Shown: one piece after another, positions 41,701-44,700 of the stretch
Layout of the letters: the number at the start of each line of letters is the position of its first letter
How positions within the stretch are numbered: the stretch's first letter is position 1
Source: Heterocephalus glaber
Taxonomy: Eukaryota; Chordata; Mammalia; Rodentia; Bathyergidae
Length of the DNA: 64,000 nt
Direction: 5' to 3'
Assembly: GCF_000247695.1 (NCBI RefSeq)
Contig: NW_004624843.1
Coordinates: forward strand, 4,457,831 to 4,521,830
Notes under the pieces: generated by a model
What the model was told of the DNA's origin: nothing
What the model saw: only the letters and a program-made list of their open reading frames with translations
Database searches by the model: none
Program-made: the position numbers and the translations under genes

Positions 41701-44700
41701 ACTCAGGACTGTTTGAAATTAAATGAATTTCTAGCGGTTTGGGGGCCATACAGATAGTATGAGTCTTTCATGGCTGTTGTCTTTCGTGGGACTGAGTGCA
41801 CCATGAAGCTTCACACAGGTGGGGACAAGTATGTTTCCCATGGGCCCTTCTGTGGTGGCTTCTTTGCCTATCTCCTGTCCTGAGCGGCAGCCCTTGGCCC
41901 TGGGCGCACCCTGGGGCTCCTGGTGGTGCCGCTGTGGCAGCTCCTGTTGTCCACCTTCCCCGCCCAGCAGCTTCAGCACCGCAGATCAAGGTCCCTGAGG
42001 ACTTGCAGCTCCCTTAGGGCAGAGTCTCTGATGCACCTTGGTCCTAGGATTCCTGCTTTGGCTTCACTCTGGGCCTCCACAGCTCCTTCCTGTCACTCAG
42101 GGGTGTGCTTTAAAATTGGCCTCTCGGGTCGGGGATTTAGCTTAGTGGTTTCACCACCTGCTGCACAAGCGCAAGGACCTGAGTTTGATCCCTGGTACCA
42201 AAATAAATAAATTAATTAATTAAATTAAATTAAATTAAATTAAATTAAATTGCCTTCTCAGCCAGGTCTTTTCATTGTTTTCACTGCTTTTTCAGACTGT
42301 CTGTCCTGCAATGTTGACAGAAAAGGAAACTTGTCGTCAAGTGTCATAGTTACTTTCTCATTGCTGAGACATGATACCCAACACCCACAAGTTAAAGGAG
42401 GAGAGGTTTCTTTCGGCTCACAGTTTGTTCAGGTTTCAGTTCGTAGCTGGCTGGCTCCAAGGCAGGGCAGCAGGGCAGAGGGGAAAGAGTTCACGGATAA
42501 GCAGCAGGAAGCATGAGGGATCAAGGGAAGAGGAGGGCGATGGACCCTTGCAGGCCACACCCCCAGTGGCCACACCCCCAGTGGCCACACCCCCAGTGAC
42601 CAGTCCTCTACCAGGGTCCACTTCCCAACATCACATTTGGCTATAAATTTGTCAGCGGACTAATCCACAGATGAGAATCACATCCCCGTGATCCACTCAC
42701 CTCCCCAAAGCCCCACCTGTGAGCACACGAGGGATTACAGTAAGTGCTTTTCTGCAGGCTCAGTGTATCAGTGGGTGGCCTTTTGCAGAGAGGCTGCAGA
42801 AATAACAGGGACTTCTGTAACTGATGACATCACAAAACCCTTGTGAGCACCTGGGCTGTTCCACAGCCTGAGTCAGGCTTAAGCAGAGCAGCTGGAGGGA
42901 GAAGAAGGGACCCTTGGGCTCTGTGAGGGAGAGAAGGCCACAGGTAAAGATGGCTGTGAGGAGCCAGTAATAGTTTTGTTGTTGGTGGTAGTTTATTTAT
43001 TTCTTTGATGGTGCTTGGGGATTGAACCCAGGGCCTTCGTATTGAACTATATCCCCATACCTTTTAAAAAATTTTTATTTCGAGACAGGGTCTGGCTAAG
43101 GTGACCAGGCTAGGCTCAACTTGGGATCCTCCTGCCTCAGCCTCCCAGAGTGCTGGGATTCCAGGGGTGTGCCACCACACCTAGCTCCGTTTGTTTTCAA
43201 GATTTCTTGATTTGTGTTGGCCAGCACCACAGCCCCCTGCTAAAGTTCTTTCCAGATGGCCAAGTGCAGAGAGCCCTGAGCTGATGGATGTGGTGGTGCT
43301 TTCCCAGCTCTGCCCTAACAAGGACCTAGGGAAGCTGGTAGAGAAATAGCACAAGTCTGCTGTCTCACAGTTCGGGAGGCCAGACATCTGTAGTCAGGTG
43401 TGGGCTGGCCACGGCCCTCCAAAGGCCAAGACTAAGTCCTTCCTGTCCTCTCCCAGCTATGCTCAGCTGTGGCCTCTTCACTCCCGTCTCTGCCTCCGTC
43501 TCCCCACGGCCACTCCCTGTGTGTCGCTGTCTGCACTCCCTTCCTGGAGGTCCAGCAGCCTCGTGGAGACCTCATCTTACCCATGCTTACCTCTACCACC
43601 ACCCTACCCAGTGGCCTCGGGATCTGAGGGTTCAGGATGTCATTTTGACCCCCGACAACACACACTGTGGACAGAATTCCCAGCCAGTGCCAGGGAATTA
43701 AAAATCTTTTACAAAACCTGGAATTTCTGCTGCTCCAGCAGATGACACCTGGGACAGATTGGGTGGGGTGGGAGGAGGGTCCAGACCACAGGGAGGGGGA
43801 TCTGGGGGCAGAGCCAAGGCAGCAGCCGTATGAAACTTTAGTACATTGTTGCTTTGGGGTGGAAATTCTTGGGTTGGGTGGAAGCCTTTTTTTTTTTTTT
43901 TTTGTACCAGGTATCGAACTCAGGTCCTTGGGCTTGCAAGGCCGGAGGTGGAGCCACTGATCTAAATCCTCGGCCCGTGGAAGACTTTTTTTTTTGGTAC
44001 CGGAGATCGAACTCAGGTCTTTGCGCTTGTGAGGCAGGCGACAGAACCACTGAGCTAAATCCCCGGCCCGTGGAAGAATTTTTAATATAATGCTGGGGAC
44101 CGAAATGAGGGCCTGCAGCCAAGCTACATCCCCAGCCCTATACTTATTTTTCATTGTGAGGCAGGGTTTTACTGAGTCACTAAATCACCCAGGATGGCCC
44201 TGAACTTGCGGTCCTCCTGCCTCAGCCTCCCGAGTGCTAGGATTACTGTGCTTGTGTTTAAATAACATGAAGGGTTCTGATTGTGTACAGTTATCTTCCC
44301 TGCTGTGGCAGTCAAATCGTCTCAATGCTTCCATTTGTCCTGTGTCCCCATGCCTGCTTGGTCACTGTCACACTGCTGGCCAGACAGCTGGCTTTCGGCT
44401 TCTGTAACTGCCAGGGCTGTTTGACAAACCAAAGAGTGTTCTTATCTTGTGTTCCTTTATTTCTTTTCACTTCAGGATTCCTGGACTCCAGAGTTAAAGT
44501 TGAAGCTCGAGAAGTTTCTAGCACTAATTTTTAAAGCCAGTAACACACCCAAGCTTTTAACAATCTATGTATCCTTTTGTTTTGTTTTGGTACCGGGGAT
44601 GGAACTTGGGACCTTGTGCATGTGCGGCAGGGGCCAGAACCACTAAGCTAAATCCCCGGCCCTATCAATCTATGTATCCTTTTGACACGAATGAGACCAG

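Follow-up and report, generated by a model that had tools for sequence, protein, structure and literature searches.

Splice-site copying by SINEs is already known for ordinary splice signals. In the dog merle allele, an antisense tRNA-type SINE lies at an exon-intron boundary of PMEL and its 15-bp target-site duplication includes the splice site; the duplicated site is the original acceptor, of the major class, and a visible phenotype arises through a cryptic acceptor in the SINE (PMC7349775). In some introners, the 5' splice site is supplied by the target-site duplication of the transposon (PMC9860276). Paired U12-type donors are also described. In the USSEs of SNRNP48 and RNPC3, a U2-type acceptor is followed by two U12 donor sequences, which could in principle bind U11 twice; both sites are unspliced and highly conserved (PMC8329584; PMC5473595). 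In MAPK8/9, two U12 donors compete in one transcript; these lie on different exons and are interlocked with two U2 acceptors (PMC8329584). For the major class, engineered minigenes place identical donors a few tens of bases from each other on an exon that has a long intron on both sides (PMC9225289).

The 64,000-nt stretch of Heterocephalus glaber DNA analysed here (the window) contains a further variant of SINE splice-site copying, in which the copied signal is a U12-type donor of ARMC9. In contrast to introners, which create new introns in exons (PMC9860276), this SINE sits within an intron that already existed, close to its start; the exon ahead of it joins the next in frame, and the intron has gained a second donor. 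As in the USSEs, there are two U12 donor copies, here 105 nt apart. Unlike the USSEs, the ARMC9 pair is SINE-made and its upstream copy is very probably spliced, since the exon ends exactly there and joins the next exon in frame. In contrast to MAPK8/9, the ARMC9 donors are identical and belong to one exon.

No SINE-made duplicate of a U12 donor was found among the titles listed from the open-licence literature. The original prediction described the duplication of a whole donor as unusual. The merle acceptor, the introner donors and the 48 ID-bearing pairs among 100 listed pairs of TATCCTTT (see below) indicate that rarity was overstated. The locus was also proposed as a test of donor choice; it is a useful natural test, but competing U12 donors are not unheard of, as MAPK8/9 illustrate (PMC8329584).

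ARMC9 and its duplicated donor

The 5' part of ARMC9 lies in the window on the + strand, with coding exons from 29748 (the ATG exon) to 60995. These exons were located by tblastn with a human ARMC9 protein query; some pieces are weak (e.g. 56753, E 0.73). We take ARMC9 to be a cilia gene associated with a ciliopathy (Joubert syndrome). The joined product of the first exons matches the Pfam domains CTLH_Armc9 (E 1.4e-54) and ARMC9_LisH (E 4.3e-16). Of the next 100 kb downstream, the initial 64 kb contains recognisable ARMC9 pieces over much of residues 372-810; the last of these are only 55-67% identical. Two downstream tblastn pieces contain a stop, which on reading of the alignments lies at or beyond the apparent exon edge. 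The domains, the frame kept through a microexon (see below) and the downstream coding pieces make ARMC9 look functional, and speak against a pseudogene, which is unlikely. The exon at 35833-36042 is 57% identical to the human query protein over its tblastn piece, which is partly intron; its neighbours are far less diverged.

The features around the duplicated donor are as follows:

44476..44568, + strand: ARMC9 exon, 93 nt, phase 0/0, starting and ending between codons (tblastn, joined frame, Pfam)
44561..44579, + strand: target-site duplication, copy 1, CAATCTATGTATCCTTTTG (repeat search)
44569..44579, + strand: upstream U12-type donor GTATCCTTTTG, the protein-preserving copy (sequence, U12 consensus)
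44580..44665, - strand: ID SINE, 86 nt, antisense to ARMC9 with its A-tail toward the exon (alignment with window copies)
44644..44646, + strand: TAA, falling in frame upon use of the downstream donor (translated alternative)
44666..44684, + strand: target-site duplication, copy 2, running on into the original intron (GACACG...) (repeat search)
44674..44684, + strand: downstream duplicate U12-type donor (sequence)

The exon is flanked by introns of 6,468 nt and 3,910 nt, and is exon 6 of ARMC9 if one non-coding exon precedes. In the 2.59-Gb assembly, a 140-base query (44440-44579) matches at a single place (E up to 0.001). A second gene copy, a kept haplotype and a retrocopy of the exon were rejected on the basis of this single match.

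The direct repeat is perfect over 19/19 positions; a 22-nt alignment (44558-44579 against 44663-44684; 21/22) is an alternative that admits a single mismatch. Each copy holds the last eight bases of the exon and the whole donor; the two donors are consequently identical from -8 to +11. Judged against the U12-type donor consensus RTATCCTTT, GTATCCTTTTG is perfect; GTATCCTTT matches this consensus at 9/9 positions at both 44569 and 44674. The junction TAT/GTATCC is presumably very poor as a major-class donor. Use of the downstream donor would add 105 nt, or 35 codons; the frame is kept and the TAA falls within it. An antisense ID SINE 11 bp into the intron, its 19-bp duplication, the copying of a whole U12-type donor, the 105-nt spacing and the in-frame stop had all been predicted, and all are borne out. 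A chance repeat was considered and rejected; the 19/19 repeat surrounds a SINE and is the longest perfect duplication among the 28 ID copies of the window.

The consensus RTATCCTTT occurs three times on the + strand of the window (34495, 44569 and 44674) and not at all on the - strand. The copy at 34495 is a U12 donor look-alike; it falls after the ARMC9 exon at 32141 and before that at 35833, and no exon is seen alongside it.

A probable minor intron and its microexon

The acceptor end of the intron was located through the reading frame:

48454..48462, + strand: candidate U12-type branch site TTCCTGAAC, with one mismatch to the consensus TTCCTTRAY
48479..48503, + strand: 25-nt microexon encoding KENGRHNK plus one base, acceptor partner of the duplicated donor (frame-guided intron search)
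52752..52909, + strand: later ARMC9 exon, in frame behind the microexon

The next exon is not the one at 52752, and the microexon was overlooked in the original prediction. The frame requires 25 missing nt ahead of the exon at 52752, and these are found between AG and GTAAAT at 48479-48503. The exon at 44476-44568, the microexon and the exon at 52752-52909 join in one continuous frame. The upstream donor preserves the protein, as had been proposed. Skipping of the microexon breaks the frame. Since the microexon is the next exon, the putative minor intron is 44569-48478.

Both ends of this intron fit the minor (U12-type) class, the donor end more strongly, and we infer that it is spliced by the minor spliceosome. 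TTCCTGAAC is one of three one-mismatch branch sites in the 8.1 kb scanned, and the sole one placed ahead of the microexon. The candidate branch A lies 17-18 nt from the intron end, which is rather far for U12-type introns. The acceptor has a pyrimidine tract resembling that of a major-class acceptor. A U12-type or minor intron in ARMC9 has no match in the open-licence literature. ARMC9 is absent from the main text of the minor-intron surveys PMC6717393 and PMC8034651, the gene tables of which sit in supplements.

Insertion of the SINE

The SINE, which we assign to the ID family, has a tRNA-like body with an A-tail and aligns with the 27 other ID copies of the window. An Rfam scan of 44100-45200 gives no matches. 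The first three nucleotides of the SINE (ATA, in SINE sense) may belong to the longer, 21/22 duplication. For the 27 remaining ID copies, the best duplications chosen automatically span 8-19 nt and contain 0-3 mismatches. Two same-orientation ID SINEs are found nearly end to end at 43894-44069, with a common duplication (AA..GTCTTCCAC-like); this arrangement looks as if one ID SINE entered the tail or target of the other.

The mechanism is ordinary SINE insertion. L1 endonuclease prefers TTTT/A-like (TTTT/R) sites. The presumed nick site here, at the end of copy 2 on the + strand, is CCTTTT/GA, with G where A is usual. The flanking duplication (19/19 or 21/22) agrees with the length of about 10-20 bp that marks L1-type insertion. 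L1-type machinery would have mobilised the ID SINE and nicked the TTTT that ends the donor (at CCTTTT/GA or an adjoining position). A nick after TTTT means that the SINE must land antisense, in this case 11 bp into the minor intron. Since the bases just 5' of the nick are those duplicated, the 19-bp duplication would take the whole donor and the last eight exon bases. The clean copying of an entire donor would be explained by the donor itself running into TTTT, which puts the nick right where the donor stops.

The age of the insertion bears on whether the assembly could carry a recent or polymorphic, harmful allele, in which the downstream donor is used by intron-centred proximity. Such an allele is very unlikely. 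The 19-bp identity, the longest perfect duplication among the 28 copies, is in its favour, but speaks mildly for a young insertion, or for constraint acting on the two copies, and proves neither. An intron-centred rule would also favour the downstream donor (PMC9225289). However, the SINE differs from the consensus of the 27 others at 11/74 sites overall and at 6/60 sites outside CpG, and the corresponding medians for the full set of 28 are 0.134 and 0.080; by that measure it is not younger than its neighbours, though subfamily mixing blurs the measure. In addition, the exon is single-copy in the assembly, which is nevertheless compatible with heterozygosity.

Pairs of TATCCTTT with 84-114 nt between them number 443 genome-wide (227+216), while a reversed control pattern gives more pairs than the real one (622; 305+317). 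The pair census itself therefore shows no enrichment; what is informative is solely the proportion of listed pairs that carry an ID. ID content was scored by blastn in 100 of the 443 pairs (97 stretches), taken first by contig (C1-C15) and hence non-random. An antisense ID is present in 41 of these pairs and a sense ID in seven; 52 have none. The exact repeat, the length of which may be stretched by T-runs of the SINE tail, reaches 12 nt in 34/41 antisense pairs, 5/7 sense pairs and 3/52 others. ID insertions thus routinely duplicate TATCCTTT, mostly in antisense as the nick rule predicts, at places defined by this 8-mer alone. At one genomic location (C9:14198491-14198697; L068), three TATCCTTT copies are split by two successive antisense ID SINEs, an arrangement consistent with repeated insertion at one site.

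The full donor GTATCCTTTTG occurs 594+670 times in the genome, and its reversed control 979+969 times. From about 700 minor introns per genome, eight placements and an ID density taken from the window alone, a rough estimate gives ~2.5 neutral insertions duplicating a U12 donor per genome; one surviving case is consequently no surprise. It is conceivable, though rather doubtful, that the U12 donor consensus, because it ends in a T-run (CCTTT(T)), makes a good target for the L1 endonuclease in its own right, and that minor-intron donors are recurrently and cleanly duplicated. The ratio of 41 antisense to seven sense insertions among ID-bearing TATCCTTT pairs, all 48 picked by the 8-mer alone, fits this reading. 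If it is true, antisense SINEs would as a rule insert close behind the 5' end of minor introns and duplicate the donor in full, and SINE-rich genomes would gain alternative U12 donors or U11-binding decoys.

Choice between the two donors

The locus is probably explained by an L1-type insertion that copied a whole U12 donor, after which the upstream copy remained in use and the protein unchanged, with the second copy silent or feeding minor isoforms. U11 and U6atac could pair alike with both copies. Under exon definition, the upstream copy would be chosen for its shorter distance, measured over the 93-nt exon, from the acceptor bound by U2AF, both flanking introns being kilobases long. The downstream copy would then be silent, or would feed a minority of transcripts carrying the SINE and its stop.

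Major-class donors follow a corresponding rule: the donor nearest across the intron wins if introns are short, and the donor nearest across the exon wins if they are long (PMC9225289). When identical major-class donors are placed 52 nt apart in exon-defined minigenes, use of the upstream donor is exclusive (PMC9225289). In addition, U11-59K binds U2AF, a contact that supports bridging of the exon by the minor and major spliceosomes (PMC8034651). The exon rule, the U11-59K/U2AF contact and the apparent integrity of the gene favour the upstream donor. However, it is for major-class donors that the exon rule was shown. The branch site and the donor are engaged jointly by U11/U12 (PMC5473595), and this joint binding could favour the downstream donor.

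In place of preferred upstream use, both donors may be used appreciably, in which case the SINE stop would cause a partial, perhaps tissue-dependent ARMC9 knock-down or a truncated protein. This is unlikely, although the donors are identical over the -8 to +11 interval, and, in tissues of mouse and human, alternative splicing near minor introns most prominently takes the form of alternative 5' and 3' site use (PMC6717393). Both donors are also partly open in one local folding model (8-mer unpaired 0.61 upstream and 0.31 downstream). The minigenes with identical major-class donors, in which exon definition led to use of the upstream donor alone (PMC9225289), argue against mixed use. Decay of the longer, stop-bearing isoform is likely but not certain, as stop-bearing isoforms around minor introns have been found to escape decay (PMC8034651).

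Folding gives no clear donor preference. The upstream donor is predicted to be more open in 5/7 folding windows and less open in 2/7, including the exon-start window (0.34 vs 0.73). The two sites had been presented as equal donors. This description is true of the -8 to +11 interval alone; the two differ in exon length, in downstream context and possibly in folding.

Alternatively, the downstream copy may be unspliced and act like a USSE, as a U11/U12-binding enhancer aiding exon definition, or as a decoy sequestering U11. The tandem U12 donors of SNRNP48 and RNPC3, which bind U11 without being spliced and activate the upstream U2-type acceptor (PMC5473595; PMC8329584), provide a precedent. Such a role is highly improbable here: in USSEs, both the sequence and its spacing from the acceptor are highly conserved, while the ARMC9 pair is a chance product of a SINE; furthermore, the first member of the pair is the donor itself. 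Use of the upstream donor, with the duplicate silent or minor, is the preferred reading.

To our knowledge, the choice of the minor spliceosome between equally good donors is little studied; this is explained by the strictness of its sites, which seldom compete. In ARMC9, a single acceptor is contested by two donors of identical immediate sequence (-8 to +11), and the one exon that carries them has a long intron on either side. An exon-centred rule predicts use of the upstream donor, while an intron-centred rule, in which U11/U12 bridges donor and branch site, predicts use of the downstream donor. The value of the locus is that of a natural two-donor experiment for the minor spliceosome. If use is mixed, the SINE would have given a ciliopathy gene a stop-bearing isoform.
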